Below are positions 3,368 through 50,478 of a stretch of 64,000 nt of DNA, in pieces. The notes under the pieces were generated by a model. It was not told the DNA's origin, made no database searches, and worked only from the letters and a program-made list of their open reading frames with translations. The number at the start of each line of letters is the position of its first letter. Positions within the stretch are counted from its first letter, which is position 1. Origin of the DNA: Candidatus Methanoperedentaceae archaeon GB37 (GTDB taxonomy: Archaea; Halobacteriota; Methanosarcinia; Methanosarcinales; EX4572-44); assembly GCA_905171695.1 (NCBI GenBank), contig LR991653.1, positions 648,258-712,257 on the forward strand. Direction: 5' to 3'. The position numbers were made by a program, and so were the translations under genes.

Positions 3368-4036
3368 TCACCGTCTCTCTGTCTCACGTTTTATTCGATG
3401 AATCACCTCTATCGCGTCCTCTCGTTTCAGGTCGACCGCATGCTCCTCTATATATCTATGGAGTTCCTCTGCTCTCTCTCGTGTGAGGATGGCATTATCT
3501 CTTGCCCTCTCAAGGAGTGCCCTGTAGTTTCGCTCAGGGTAGTATGTCTCTCTTGCAATCCTCACAATCTCTCTCTCTTCATCTGGTGTGATCAGGTCTT
3601 CTGCTGCAGCCTTGTGAAGTGTCTCGCGGATATTCACGAGTGGGGTTGAGAGCGGCTTGCAGGTCTCAGGGTCGAGCACAACTGCAACCTCGTCGTCCGA
3701 CGTGTATATCTCGCTTCGGTATCGCTGGTAGATGGTTCCGACTCCTATCATTCCGTGTCTGTCAAGCTCTGATGCGCGAAGTGCGCCCATGCTTGCACCT
3801 CCAAAGACTGTGATGCCTCTTTTGATCGCTTCAAGTATCTCCCTGTGCCCAACGGCTGCACGGTTGAAGAAGACGCCGTCAATTATTCCGATCACATCCG
3901 GTTCTTCTCTGATCGCCCTTATGATGTTGCCGCGGCGTACTGGTGGTCGGTAATCGGCGTTTGAGAGGATCTTTCTTGCATCCTCGTGTGTGATGCTCGT
4001 GCCCGTGTAGATGATTATCCTCCTCGCTTCGCCCAC
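3368..4036 (-). CDS. tfuA: TfuA-like protein, partner of YcaO in McrA thioamidation
   Basis: A 222-residue TfuA-domain protein: YTGTSITHEDARKIL near the N-terminus, IIDGVFFNRAAVGHREILEAIKRGI and GGASMGALRASEL are characteristic. In MCR archaea TfuA and YcaO are together needed for the thioglycine in McrA (shown in Methanosarcina), with TfuA thought to help deliver sulfur. It begins with GTG inside the 3' end of ycaO (22-base overlap), so the two are translationally coupled. The link to McrA here is by family and host type; mcrA is outside the window. Confidence 0.88.
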   Translation of the reverse strand: MGEARRIIIYTGTSITHEDARKILSNADYRPPVRRGNIIRAIREEPDVIGIIDGVFFNRAAVGHREILEAIKRGITVFGGASMGALRASELDRHGMIGVGTIYQRYRSEIYTSDDEVAVVLDPETCKPLSTPLVNIRETLHKAAAEDLITPDEEREIVRIARETYYPERNYRALLERARDNAILTRERAEELHRYIEEHAVDLKREDAIEVIHRIKRETERR

Positions 4037-5292
4037 AGATGCCCTCCTCTTCTTCTGCGCTTCATCTCTTCACGCACCCGTTCCCCGATACGTGTTGAAT
4101 CGAGCGCCGAGACCTCAAGTCCCGGGACTATGGCGCGTATGACCGGTATCTCGATCTTCTCTCTTGTGAGGTTGACGATGATCGCTCTACTGGCGATCCT
4201 TGCTATGCGATCGAGGACGATCCGTATATTCTCATACGGCTTTCGCTCTGCGCAGTTCGCGATCTCAGGCAGTGTGATCGTCTCTCTCCTCTTGTTGTAC
4301 CAGTGTCGATTGATCCGTTTGACAGTTGTGTAGCCTGCTCTTCGCATGACCTCTTCTCTCAGAGTGTCCTCGCGTGCACCGTGTATCTGGATGAGCCGGG
4401 ACTGTGCCGCTTCAGTGAGTGCCCGAGTGACTGCAACAGCAGGGTCGAGGTGTGCGCCTGCCCCGATCACGAGCAGTGCTGGATCTCTCAGGGCTCTGTC
4501 GTCGAGTGCTGCAAGAATGGTAGGAATACCTGTCTCGGATGGGAGGTTCCAGAGATAGACATCGACCATGGCATCAGTAAACTTCTTAAAGAGTGTGTAT
4601 GGTGTGCCATCTGATGGGTCAAGTACGATCCGTGAACCTGTCTCCCTCGTTCCCTCTGCAATGCTGTAGGCATCACGCTCGACAACCTCGAGTAAGCCAT
4701 GCAGGATCGCTTCTTCGATGGAGTTTCCTGCTGCAAACCCGTTGGTATCACTTCGAAAGAGTCTGAAAACACTCGGCGGTGGATTATAGGGATGATAGAC
4801 TGCATTTGCAGGTACGAGGACATCTTCGTCTGCGAGAAGATCCCAGCCACGCACCCACTCAATCGGGCTCTCTGGCGAGAGCGGCTGTGGGAGGATCAGT
4901 TCATTTGGGTCAAGAGGATTCTCAAATTCCTCCAGGTGGGAATAAGAGTCAACGATCCACTCTTCCCGGATATGCGGCTCCTTTATATCGAGATTGTCGC
5001 GGGACGCCTCTCCAAGACAGCGCTCAACCGCCTCCATCACAGCCGAGATCCTCGACTGCTCATCGCTCACACCCTTACCAGAGTAGACCGAGACTGCGCC
5101 CTTTGCAGCACTTGGTCGCGTGACCGAATGAACAGGTATGCCGATGCGGTCAAGATCTGTTATCTGTGCAACCCGCGTGACTCCAACCTTTGACTGCACA
5201 GACCTGATCCTGAGAAGTGACTCCTCTTCGCTCAAGACGCGATACGTGCCATTCAGGTATCTAAGCGAACGATCGAGTGTGAACAGTCTCAT
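4015..5292 (-). CDS. ycaO: YcaO cyclodehydratase-family protein (McrA thioglycine formation)
   Basis: ATP-dependent amide-activating enzyme. The 425-residue sequence shows the YcaO ATP-binding elements: GKGVSDEQSRISAVMEAVER near residue 73, and the later AEEAILHGLLEVVERDA-like helix (SIEEAILHGLLEVVERDAYS, about 192). In MCR archaea the YcaO/TfuA pair installs thioglycine in the McrA active-site region. It starts with an ATG that overlaps the prefoldin stop (ATGA) and runs into tfuA. The N-terminal NGTYRVLSEEESLLRI region is typical of the archaeal stand-alone enzymes rather than the bacteriocin ones. Confidence 0.9.
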   Translation of the reverse strand: MRLFTLDRSLRYLNGTYRVLSEEESLLRIRSVQSKVGVTRVAQITDLDRIGIPVHSVTRPSAAKGAVSVYSGKGVSDEQSRISAVMEAVERCLGEASRDNLDIKEPHIREEWIVDSYSHLEEFENPLDPNELILPQPLSPESPIEWVRGWDLLADEDVLVPANAVYHPYNPPPSVFRLFRSDTNGFAAGNSIEEAILHGLLEVVERDAYSIAEGTRETGSRIVLDPSDGTPYTLFKKFTDAMVDVYLWNLPSETGIPTILAALDDRALRDPALLVIGAGAHLDPAVAVTRALTEAAQSRLIQIHGAREDTLREEVMRRAGYTTVKRINRHWYNKRRETITLPEIANCAERKPYENIRIVLDRIARIASRAIIVNLTREKIEIPVIRAIVPGLEVSALDSTRIGERVREEMKRRRRGGHLWAKRGG

Positions 5293-47069: not shown

Positions 47070-47144
47070 AACTACAACCTCTCTCGACTGATAAGAAACG
47101 ATTGGTTGATTGATATTCTATAAAAACGTTGTGGTTGCTTTGCT

Positions 47145-47704
47145 GGACGTGTCCACTTAACATAGACGCCACCTCAACCGATTATAATAAAGCATAAAGA
47201 GCTTACAGAACAAATTCCAGTTTTTAACAGGATTAAAAGAGCTAATTGAGCAGAAGAATATATTTGTTCTCTGTTTTAGTGTTGCATGAAATCTTTTGGG
47301 TGGGAAAGAACTGATCGCTCAAATTCCAGATCCAGGATTTTCAGCGCATCTATAAGCGAAGGGAGCTTAATAGACATAATACGCCTTTTTATCTTGCTTT
47401 AACAACTCTTTCGTCCAATGCAATGCTATCGAGCATCTTCTCTTCTTCTCCGATACAGCAGGCAATTTCTCTTCAAACATTCCCTCTTTCCAAAGAGAGG
47501 TTTTAGATACTGGATGAAGCCAGAGAGAGAACTCTAGCAGTCCTCCTCACAGAAGACATCTGAATACAGGTCGCAATACCAAGAACCTTAACCTCAAAAG
47601 GCACCTTATTCCTCTCAAACACCCTCAACTCTTCAACAATCTCCCTTACCTTCAGCATAAATAAAAAATAGTCTCTTGTATTTATAATCTTATGTGGACG
47701 GGTC
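47145..47704 (-). mobile_element. decayed DDE transposon, relic B
   Basis: Same element as relic A in the opposite orientation: left end GACCCGTCCACATA ends at 47704 and right end GGACGTGTCCACTTAA begins at 47145. It keeps MLKVREIVEELRVFERNKVPFEVKVLGIATCIQMSS and ALDE then VVKAR-like pieces, but has lost more of the catalytic middle than relic A. It lacks the hairpin pair of relic A. Confidence 0.8.
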
Positions 47705-47880
47705 TTCTCTTGATAACATTAGGAAAGCCACAGAACTTGCAAACAACAGGCACTGCTTCCTTTATCTCCTGCTTCTCTAACTTCTGCTTTAAAGCTATCC
47801 AAAATCTTACTGCATAGATGTGCTTGCATACAACTTTCCTGTATTTGTGATCTGGGCAACTGCAACGCCACTCTCCATTT
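47705..47880 (-). pseudogene. SWIM zinc-finger transposase N-terminal fragment
   Basis: On the minus strand one frame reads NGEWRCSCPDHKYRKVVCKH then IYAVRFWIALKQKLEKQE and VVCKFCGFPNVIKRR. This is a SWIM zinc finger (CxC...CxH) followed by a CxxC ribbon, the N-terminal layout of some archaeal transposases. It is cut on one side by relic B and on the other by the recombinase gene. It could instead be the original N-terminal part of the transposase family in relic B. Confidence 0.55.
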
Positions 47881-48485
47881 CTGTTTATAAGATTGGGAGA
47901 CCAAAGAAAGACAAGAAGCTGCCAGTTGTTTTGAGTCAGGAGGAAGTTTTAAAGATTTTATCTTCCGTTACAAATCTTAAACACAGGCTGATTTTGATGC
48001 TCATCTATTCTGCTGGCTTGAGGGTTGGAGAAGTTGTAAAGCTAAGGGTCGAGGATATAGATGTTGAAAGAGGGATGATCAGAATAAGGGGTGGAAAGGG
48101 CAGGAAAGATCGCTACACAATTCTCTCTGAAGCAGCATTAAACACGTTTAAAGAATACGTTGATAGATATAAGCCAGAAAAGCCAGAAAAGCGGCTGTTT
48201 CCGGGACAGAGAAAAGATAGACATATAACAACAAGGACTCTGCAGAAGCTATTTGATAATACACGTAGAAAAGTAGGGATAAGGAAAAAGGCCACGGTTC
48301 ATTCCTTGAGGCATTCATTTGCCACCCATCCGCTCGAAAGTGGAGTTGATCTGAGATACATTCAGGAGTTGCCTGGTCACAAAAGTTCAAAAACAACAGA
48401 GATTTATACTCACGTTGCAATGAAAGATTTAAGAAAAATAAGAAGTCCGCTAGATATGTTGGTTAAAGGTGAAAAAGATGGATGA
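47820..48485 (+). CDS. tyrosine recombinase catalytic domain, N-terminus lost
   Basis: From about residue 25 (GRPKKDKKLPVVLSQEEVLKIL) this is an XerA/XerC-type catalytic domain with the full set R (SAGLRVGEV), K (GGKGRKDR), HxxR (HSLRHSFATH), H (PGHKSSKTT) and Y (EIYTHVAM). The core-binding N-terminal domain is missing; the first 22 or so codons are antisense to a transposase fragment. Two normally conserved Leu are Pro (ATHPLESG, ELPGHKS), which suggests decay. The extra insert typical of integron integrases is absent. Confidence 0.75.
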   Translation: MLAYNFPVFVIWATATPLSISVYKIGRPKKDKKLPVVLSQEEVLKILSSVTNLKHRLILMLIYSAGLRVGEVVKLRVEDIDVERGMIRIRGGKGRKDRYTILSEAALNTFKEYVDRYKPEKPEKRLFPGQRKDRHITTRTLQKLFDNTRRKVGIRKKATVHSLRHSFATHPLESGVDLRYIQELPGHKSSKTTEIYTHVAMKDLRKIRSPLDMLVKGEKDG

Positions 48486-48486
48486 G

Positions 48487-48525
48487 TTCGTATACCAAAA
48501 TTAAAGATAGCATAAACTTCGTATA
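48487..48525. repeat. direct repeat TTCGTATA flanking 23 bases
   Basis: TTCGTATA occurs at 48487-48494 and 48518-48525, just after the recombinase stop and 43 bases before the left edge of the cassette. Short direct repeats near an integrase gene can be its binding sites. Two copies are little evidence. Confidence 0.3.
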
Positions 48526-48568
48526 TCCTTCCAAAACCGAACAAAAAGCGAATTTCATATATACTAAG

Positions 48569-49033
48569 TTAGGCGAAATGCTTAATCACGGGAAACAAAA
48601 AATAAAGAAGGTGATAAAATGGAAGTATGGACAGCGTTAGGATATGTATTTTTAGGTGGTGTTTTAGGTGCTGTGGGGCAAGGAATAAGAGTGATTGTAG
48701 GAATAAAAAAGAACATAGACGAAGCTAGTGCTAAAAAGTGGGAAGACTGGTTTGAGACGAAACAGTTGGGGATAAGTTTTGTTATAGCCCTTGCATTAGG
48801 AGGAATTGCCGGAGTCCTGGGGCCATAGAGCTTTTAGGAACAAAGATAACTAAAGAATTCATGATAACATTAATCGCAGTAGGATATGCTGGGACGGATT
48901 TCATAGAAGGATTTATGAAAAGACGCATACCCAAATAACATCTGCACTATCGCCTAACAGAGCGTATCTGGCTCCGTGCCCTCGGCACTCTGCCCAAATC
49001 CTGCTTCGCAGGACTTCAGATACGCTCGGAACG
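48569..49033 (+). mobile_element. single integron-type gene cassette
   Basis: The unit begins within GTTAGGC (48568-48574) and ends in an attC-like site whose final GTTAAGT is at 49033-49039. Both fit GTTRRRY, cut after the G. The site's own inner repeat GCCTAAC (48952) is the exact complement of the left-boundary GTTAGGC, as expected if the cassette once closed into a circle through them. It carries one gene in the usual direction, starting 50 bases in. No integron integrase is seen beside it. Confidence 0.7.
48619..48938 (+). pseudogene. cassette gene: small membrane protein, holin-like, one frameshift
   Basis: First frame (48619-48828): MEVWTALGYVFLGGVLGAVGQGIRV, a hydrophobic helix, then a polar stretch (AKKWEDWFETKQLG) and a second helix (ISFVIALALGGIAGVLG). 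The reading continues in another frame as IELLGTKITKEF then MITLIAVGYAGTDFIEGFMKRRIPK, ending at 48938. One more G in the GGGG run at 48818-48821 would join both into about 106 residues. Three membrane helices and a basic tail resemble phage holins, but no family is assigned. Confidence 0.6.
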
Positions 49034-49039
49034 TTAAGT
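48952..49039 (+). other. attC-like recombination site
   Basis: GCCTAAC (RYYYAAC, 48952) and GTTAAGT (GTTRRRY, 49033) bound an imperfect inverted repeat with arms GAGCGTATCTG and CAGATACGCTC. Between the arms are two small hairpins, GTGCC/GGCAC and TCCTGC/GCAGGA. The 88-base length is in the attC range. The arrangement is that of the 59-base elements of bacterial integrons. Confidence 0.72.
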
Positions 49040-49197
49040 GAGACATTTTGTTCTATTTCAAGATTGATTTAGAGTTACCACTACGTCTGCAACACCACAA
49101 ATGCAACACCTAGAGAATCAACAGAACCGATCGGCACAAGGTTTATCACCTGTATAGTTACATCCTATCTCTTTCACCCGTTGGTGAGGTGTGCTGC

Positions 49198-50478
49198 TTG
49201 TCTGATGAGCTTGGTCTCTCTGAGTTATTTGAGATCACCCTCGATATCGGTGGTCGTCCTGGTGTGGACTGTAGGGGTTTTTGTAGGTACTGCTACTTCA
49301 GGGGCGCAAGAGAGAATCCTGTGCCTGGGTGCAGGTACTGTTCAGAGGGGCGTGTTGGTTGTGAGAAGTGCCGCTGTGAGATTCTTGAGAAGCATGACGG
49401 ATATAAAGATCCCACTCTCCTTCAGCACCACGCAAGAGCGAGGATTGCTGAGGAGCGTTTCATATACCCAGGTCGCAGTTATGCGATCAACATCAGCGGG
49501 GGAGGGGATGCTGGTTGCTATCCTGATCTCCTGAAGCTTGTCCGATCGATCGGGGGTGTGGTCCCGATCCACCTTGGGTATGTGAGCGGCAAGGGCTTGA
49601 CGCCGCAGCTTGCAAGAGAGCTTGTTGAGGCAGGTGTTCGGATCGTTACGTTCACGGTATTCTCGACCGATCCATCGCTGCGAGGAGAGTGGTTGAACGA
49701 TCCTAACCCTGAGCTCTCTTTGGAGTCGCTGCGCACGTTTGCTGGCATCTGTGAGACGTATGCTGCCGCTGTGGTGATACCGGGTGTAAACGTTGAAGAT
49801 ATATTCGAGACTGCTCGGGTGCTTGAATCATGGGGCGTTAAAGGCCTTACGTTGATGCGTTTTGGAAACTCTGAAGAGAACGGGATTATACTTGGAAATG
49901 ATCCGATTATAGAGGGTATCACTCCTCAGAGTGTTGAGGAGTTCAGAGATCTTGTGTTTGCCGTTGACAGTGCCGTTCCAGGGATGAGGGTTGTTGGAAC
50001 ACCGTTCTCTGACCCTCTCACCGGCGCGCCGTTCGCACTTGCGACTCTCTCAGAGGACGAGTTTCCATCCTTCCCTCCTATTCGCTCTGAAGCCACGATA
50101 CTCTCAGGAAGTCTCGCAGCCCCCTTGATAGAGAGGATACTTCAGAGGATTGATGGGTCTTGGCACGTGAACGTGATCGGTCTAGGAAAGGAGATCGGTG
50201 ATCTTATCACGCACCGCGATCTTGAGCGCCTGCCACTCGACTCTGTGAAGGAGACCGTGATCGCTCCAGGGAATGCGCTCATCCACAACAATATTGCAAG
50301 AGATCTGCTCTCGCGGGATGGTGTGAAGCGTTATCTGATCCGTGGACCGAATCGGCTCACCGCGGACTGCGAGACAAGTATCAGGATGAGTCGCGAGAGC
50401 GTGATAAGACTTGAGATTGAGGGTTTCACAGAGTTGATCCGCCTGATCAACGCACTCGGCTTACCCCCACACGATTGA
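49198..50478 (+). CDS. mmp10: Mmp10, McrA arginine C-methyltransferase (radical SAM)
   Basis: Cobalamin- and SAM-dependent enzyme that methylates an arginine in the MCR alpha subunit. The approximately 426-residue protein has GVDCRGFCRYCYFRG with the radical SAM CxxxCxxC, a following Cys-rich segment (CRYCSEGRVGCEKCRC), SGGGDAGCYP and a C-terminal domain with TVIAPGNALIHNN and GPNRLTADCE. TTG at 49198 has GGTGAGGT seven bases upstream; the GTG at 49189 lies within that site. Its 3' end overlaps mmp7 tail to tail by 18 bases. Confidence 0.9.
   Translation: MSDELGLSELFEITLDIGGRPGVDCRGFCRYCYFRGARENPVPGCRYCSEGRVGCEKCRCEILEKHDGYKDPTLLQHHARARIAEERFIYPGRSYAINISGGGDAGCYPDLLKLVRSIGGVVPIHLGYVSGKGLTPQLARELVEAGVRIVTFTVFSTDPSLRGEWLNDPNPELSLESLRTFAGICETYAAAVVIPGVNVEDIFETARVLESWGVKGLTLMRFGNSEENGIILGNDPIIEGITPQSVEEFRDLVFAVDSAVPGMRVVGTPFSDPLTGAPFALATLSEDEFPSFPPIRSEATILSGSLAAPLIERILQRIDGSWHVNVIGLGKEIGDLITHRDLERLPLDSVKETVIAPGNALIHNNIARDLLSRDGVKRYLIRGPNRLTADCETSIRMSRESVIRLEIEGFTELIRLINALGLPPHD

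Follow-up and report, generated by a model that had tools for sequence, protein, structure and literature searches.

A gene cassette in an archaeal chromosome and its candidate integron system, with an integrase that lacks the I2 helix

The window – the whole 64,000-nucleotide stretch of archaeal DNA analysed here – contains a unit that is very likely one of many gene cassettes belonging to an integron system resident in the chromosome, with a XerA/IntI-like integrase devoid of I2. That the I2-less recombinase is the acting integrase is, judged from sequence and gene order, probable. In its platform the integrase gene is followed, on the same strand, by an attI made of two inverted repeats with GTTA at their end, and then by between one and four cassettes, every one of which finishes in an attC able to fold. 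The recombinase found there is of the tyrosine type and close to IntI as well as to archaeal XerA; it has an additional region at the N-terminus and no I2. Cassettes would be taken up by exchange at G|TTANNN, either at attI or at an attC, and we infer that the I2-less recombinase moves them, using the folded attC.

The window locus

The unit lies on the forward strand. At its head stands an integrase gene without its 5' end (47820-48485), which retains the C-terminal catalytic domain (PF00589, E 2e-42). It is followed by an attI-like site (48507-48580), a degenerate double inverted repeat (TTCGTATAT...GCGAATTTC) whose end is the crossover motif GTTAGGC (48568-48574). The cassette itself measures 465 bp (48569-49033); it starts with TTAGGC, and its last nucleotide is the G of the downstream core. 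Its ORF (48619-48828) encodes a probable small membrane protein of 69 aa, for which Pfam gave no matches and PHROG no significant ones; a frameshift is apparent near the 3' end, and a second frame continues to a stop at 48936-48938. The unit closes with attC (48952-49039), composed of R'' GCCTAAC (48952-48958), a stem (GAGCGTATCT/AGATACGCTC), two inner hairpins and R' GTTAAGT (49033-49039). These elements lie where a previous, sequence-only reading of the stretch had placed them, and the boundary complementarity that it noted over 7 nt in fact extends over 9 nt: GTTAGGCGA, with which the cassette begins, is reverse-complementary to the R'' region.

The next gene is mmp10, a conserved chromosomal gene (methanogenesis marker; 49189-50478, + strand; TIGR03278, 483.7 bits), and the host genome is a single 1.92-Mb contig: the attC and cassette architecture seen by the sequence-only reading is thus confirmed as lying in an archaeal chromosome. 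With its integrase truncated and its cassette gene apparently frameshifted, the window copy of the integron is a remnant, which agrees with one of the two options then offered. The other, a lone attC unaccompanied by an integron integrase, is contradicted twice: the covariance model described below finds about 42 sites in the genome, and an integrase remnant lies directly upstream, with an intact homolog elsewhere.

At the mmp10 locus of a genome from the same genus (G001), upstream homology starts only at window position 49133, and there is no integrase-cassette unit. With left-hand synteny not conserved, the locus does not reveal a clean empty site; of the comparison with relatives that had been suggested, the absence of the unit held and the empty site did not materialise. 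Neither of the two observations named beforehand as counting against a cassette was encountered: the locus is not continuous in G001, and the attC is matched by the model.

Three further features border the unit or concern the window at large. The flank that follows attC (49040-49105, + strand) resembles the sequence after attCs at ~87.86 kb and ~1294.8 kb of the genome; common to three attC loci, it may be where a since-lost cassette began or where an array ended. On the reverse strand, a decayed insertion-sequence-like repeat (47144-47704), presumably derived from a transposase gene, abuts the truncated integrase; some ten or more other copies, about 82-89% identical, are found in the genome, several of them close to attC sites. 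An Rfam scan of the window returned tRNA only.

The integrase and its attI

The product of 47820-48485 aligns, with 64% identity, to residues 185-378 of an intact 380-aa copy encoded elsewhere in the genome (1118625-1119764, - strand). R, H-x-x-R, H and Y residues are visible in the intact copy, and it lies next to an attI, a 1.35-kb cassette and an attC; the ends of this cassette match over 10 nt. Two more copies in the same genome are C-terminal fragments. These fragments, the truncation in the window, the frameshifted appearance of the cassette gene and the many solitary or degenerate sites would all suit a system that is inert in its own genome, that is, a fossil of past integron activity without a functional integrase. 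Given an intact ORF with the residues listed, adjoining an attI and a cassette with matching ends, we consider the system rather unlikely to be a fossil.

The Pfam domains of the intact copy are HTH_17, a weak HARP-like stretch, SAM_4 and Phage_integrase. The clade to which it belongs has the extra N-terminal region; HTH_17 occurs only in the intact copy from our genome, and other clade members share the stretch that follows HTH_17, where present. Scored with TIGR02249, the intact copy reaches 214.7 bits and so fails the cut-off of 265 (the truncated window copy, at 175.6 bits, is likewise under it), compared with 505.7 bits for the control IntI1, which passes; with NCBIfam XerA_Arch it reaches 242.1 bits and passes the cut-off of 220. 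In every clade member examined with the profile, the TIGR02249 match falls into two stretches that skip positions ~180-234, and in alignment a segment of ~30 residues (I2), present in three true IntIs, is missing from the clade: the additional domain that precedes the second catalytic motif of IntI is absent. In the tree, IntI is monophyletic without the clade (support 100/99); a grouping of IntI plus clade receives only 83/51. The nearest solved homologs, by sequence and by fold, are IntI4 bound to VCR (2A3V) and XerA, the AlphaFold model of the intact integrase being of moderate quality (pLDDT 77, pTM 0.50) and used only for comparison at the level of the fold.

A separate observation concerns the sister genus, where integrase copies (L266, L267, L187 and L192, in G005, G003 and G002) are cut near residue 285 and adjoin a short palindromic element (TTTCTGCACAACGAAGTTGTGCAG ... 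GGTTACCGG). The cut is close to the point at which I2 is inserted in true IntIs.

One mark of an integron, an attI insertion site beside the integrase, is evident across the clade. A conserved region 3' of the integrase stop codon holds a pair of inverted repeats, of the form TATACGAA-n6-TTCGGATA, and then GTTANNNGAAAT; a profile of this region matches the corresponding region ahead of the first cassette in many genomes. The window attI scores 44.5 bits (E 1.2e-11), being one of the profile's own seven sites; both the attI and the attC profiles were built partly from loci on which they were then used. Among clade loci with at least 50% identity and enough sequence, attI lies just downstream of the integrase in 12 of 13 (the exception is L274), compared with none of 12 loci of lower-identity recombinases (other XerA/Xer/IntI-type); another four clade loci are cut off by the edge of their contig and stand outside this count. 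An attC is found 3' of the integrase, on the same strand, at L258, L259, L261, L265, L267, L271, L274 and L276 and at the loci of our own genome. At the level of whole genomes of the class, attC occurs in 10 of the 14 with the clade vs. 39 of the 224 without it (Fisher p 3e-5, uncorrected for shared ancestry). Sites resembling attI also follow ordinary genes in the absence of an integrase, for example nusB and a dehydroquinate synthase-like gene (names from sequence reading), and our reading is that such arrays once had an integrase in cis and lost it, or were always without one. No clade integrase was recovered from some of the archaeal and bacterial genomes that have attC and attI; many of these are fragmented MAGs.

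The association of attI with the clade bears on a further explanation, namely that this is an ordinary archaeal integron or CALIN whose conventional, I2-bearing IntI has gone from this genome or works from within other organisms; the I2-less recombinase would then be an unrelated neighbour. I2-bearing IntI is indeed found in published archaeal integrons (PMC9668308), most of which are CALINs, and I2-containing IntI genes are present in G002, G081 and G084, from where they could act in trans. Such an account is nevertheless improbable: the single contig of our genome contains no I2-containing IntI, attI directly follows the I2-less integrase and not the other recombinases, and cassettes start exactly at the attI beside it. 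An IS91-like gene is likewise present on the IntI-bearing contig of G002 (C41; true IntI with I2 at 3449-4360, locus L186), which is probably of bacterial origin although binned in an archaeal MAG. The I2-containing IntI genes of G081 (contig C157, L190) and G084 (contig C5, L191) are from MAGs of the same order and another family (f5).

attC sites and cassette boundaries

The window attC combines R'' and R' core boxes with an inner inverted repeat that folds as a hairpin, the features by which an attC is recognised. Its bottom strand has a predicted folding energy of -22.7 kcal/mol vs. a mean of -12.8 for shuffled sequences (z about -4.2; 0 of 200 shuffles). A blastn search with the window region revealed attC-like sites elsewhere in the genome, and a covariance model (R1) was built from 27 sites of this and related genomes; it is distinct from the model of IntegronFinder and has the window attC in its seed. 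The consensus structure was drawn manually on the pattern of the window attC and then tested (RNAalifold on the raw alignment gave 3 pairs): over the 27 sites 83.5% of pairs are kept, and two-sided compensatory cells number 47 vs. a shuffled mean of 22.4. The outer stem varies from site to site (GCGTATCT, CGGATAAAAG, CGGACATACG) with pairing retained.

The model gives 42 attC-like matches with E<0.01 in the genome, spread round the 1.92-Mb contig. The window attC is the best of them (105.7 bits, E 5e-25), so that the check by covariance model advocated in the sequence-only reading, here made with R1, came out in its favour. Being the best of the 42, with a structure kept by compensatory pairs, the site is not a product of chance. 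Sites occur singly and in arrays of two to four, among them 283396/286139/286794/287644 (+), 958089/959266/959432 (+), 924936/926104 (-) and 614969/615575 (-).

The bottom-strand stem of the window attC has no extrahelical bases; its spacer is asymmetric (1/5 nt). In two class 1 attCs (L282), by comparison, the unbulged stem never exceeds 3 bp. An unbulged stem of at least 8 bp is present in 18 of the 37 scored sites of our genome and is broken by a mismatch or bulge in the remainder; the notion of an attC type without extrahelical bases, holding for the window site and only about half of the scored sites, was dropped. Shortened attC-like sites of 65 bp were noted at L162 (4099-4163) and L160 (5117-5181), each followed by the same ~50-bp sequence; the latter adjoins an IS-like repeat.

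If each cassette of an array has its own start and its own R'', then the R' that follows one attC should match the R'' of the next. For 28 adjacent pairs, compared at the six positions after GTTA, R' and the following R'' agree at 113 of 168 positions; permutations gave a mean of 77.1 and a maximum of 103, and none of 20,000 reached 113. The same holds at the other end of the platform: over 39 pairs from many genomes, the start at attI agrees with the R'' of the first attC at 193 of 234 positions (permutations: mean 121.9, maximum 157; 0 of 20,000 reach 193). The cassettes are thus bounded as those of integrons are: each is delimited by an attC, and the core at its start is complementary to that of its R''. 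Genes between sites share one orientation and belong to different families; those in cassettes of our genome make up a cargo typical of cassettes and include HEPN, HicA, an N6/N4 methylase, HSDR_N, a RAMP protein, a radical SAM protein and a YgjP-like peptidase. We regard the existence of cassettes, attI and attC as practically certain.

A MITE- or REP-like family of palindromic repeats, with a recombinase from another mobile element, would account for sites that are dispersed, conserved, palindromic and often solitary, several at contig ends, but it is already largely refuted, since a transposed hairpin predicts no match of cassette ends to R'' in arrays and at attI, and with the stem differing by site while pairing is kept, and co-oriented genes of different families between sites, it is scarcely credible.

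Relation to known systems and distribution

Archaeal integrons have been known since 2022, from MAGs only and with I2-containing IntIs, in a survey that counted clusters (at least two attC within 4 kb) and excluded singletons (Ghaly et al., PMC9668308). Like them, the present system has cassette arrays with folding attC in archaeal genomes, an attI just after the integrase, and cargo rich in toxin-antitoxin and restriction/methylation genes; unlike them, its integrase lacks the additional domain of IntI, many of its sites stand alone, and its genome consists of one 1.92-Mb contig. With bacterial integrons (IntI1, VchIntIA/VCR) it shares a tyrosine integrase, attI, attC with R''/R' cores of GTTA type, one-gene cassettes and the circular-cassette logic of the boundaries. 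It differs from them in its integrase, which has no I2 helix and is extended by an N-terminal region, and in the cassettes, which lie on the strand of the integrase gene; model R1 found no sites in three control records used for this comparison. Archaeal XerA, which resolves chromosome dimers at dif (PMC8371274), also has no I2, and the XerA_Arch score is over the cut-off. Unlike XerA, however, the clade adjoins attI and cassettes, carries the extra N-terminal region and exists in multiple, often decayed copies; such copies beside attI argue against the role of a single chromosomal dimer resolvase.

IntI is reported to need I2 in order to be active (Messier and Roy 2001, cited in PMC2426708; PMC7790495). 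I2 is described as an acquired helix, missing from Xer proteins, whose part is to dock extrahelical bases and to prevent exchange of the second strand; it is regarded as the innovation by which a Xer-like enzyme came to use single-stranded attC (PMC7790495). An I2-less enzyme acting on folded attC would therefore contradict the current model. Integron surveys identify integrases via I2, and an I2-less lineage is therefore invisible to them by design; our own search of open-access journal papers found no account of an I2-less integron integrase.

We tentatively advance, as a possibility short of an even chance, that the system represents a natural integron lineage of archaea and bacteria from anoxic habitats whose integrase never had I2 and works on folded attC in another way, and that this integrase is a sister or precursor of IntI. 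Were this joint proposal true, I2 would be no prerequisite for cassette capture. The pairing of an I2-less integrase with an attI and attC of its own offers a natural test of the I2 idea and a possible evolutionary intermediate: with attC sites next to an integrase that lacks the supposedly essential helix, the origin of integrons becomes testable.

The lineage is best read as one that may cross domains, with the same attC/attI kit in other archaea and in bacterial MAGs. The covariance model matches 49 of the 238 genomes of the class, and a strict attC pattern occurs on 57 contigs of named genomes (with no exact matches in IMG/VR). Archaeal carriers of attC comprise ANME-1/Methanophagales, Methanosarcinales, Methanothrix/Methanosaeta, Methanocellales, Thermoplasmata, Nitrosotalea and Archaeoglobus; bacterial MAGs with attC include Marinimicrobia, Anaerolineales, KSB1, Zixibacteria, Aminicenantes and Atribacterota. 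Binning error is possible for the MAGs, but not for our own 1.92-Mb contig. The sites document that gene cassettes are in traffic among archaea of the methane and alkane cycles; bacterial MAGs have very similar sites, and the integrase clade itself is present in ~23 of the 57 attC-bearing genomes searched, among them Marinimicrobia UBA2242 and a KSB1 MAG.
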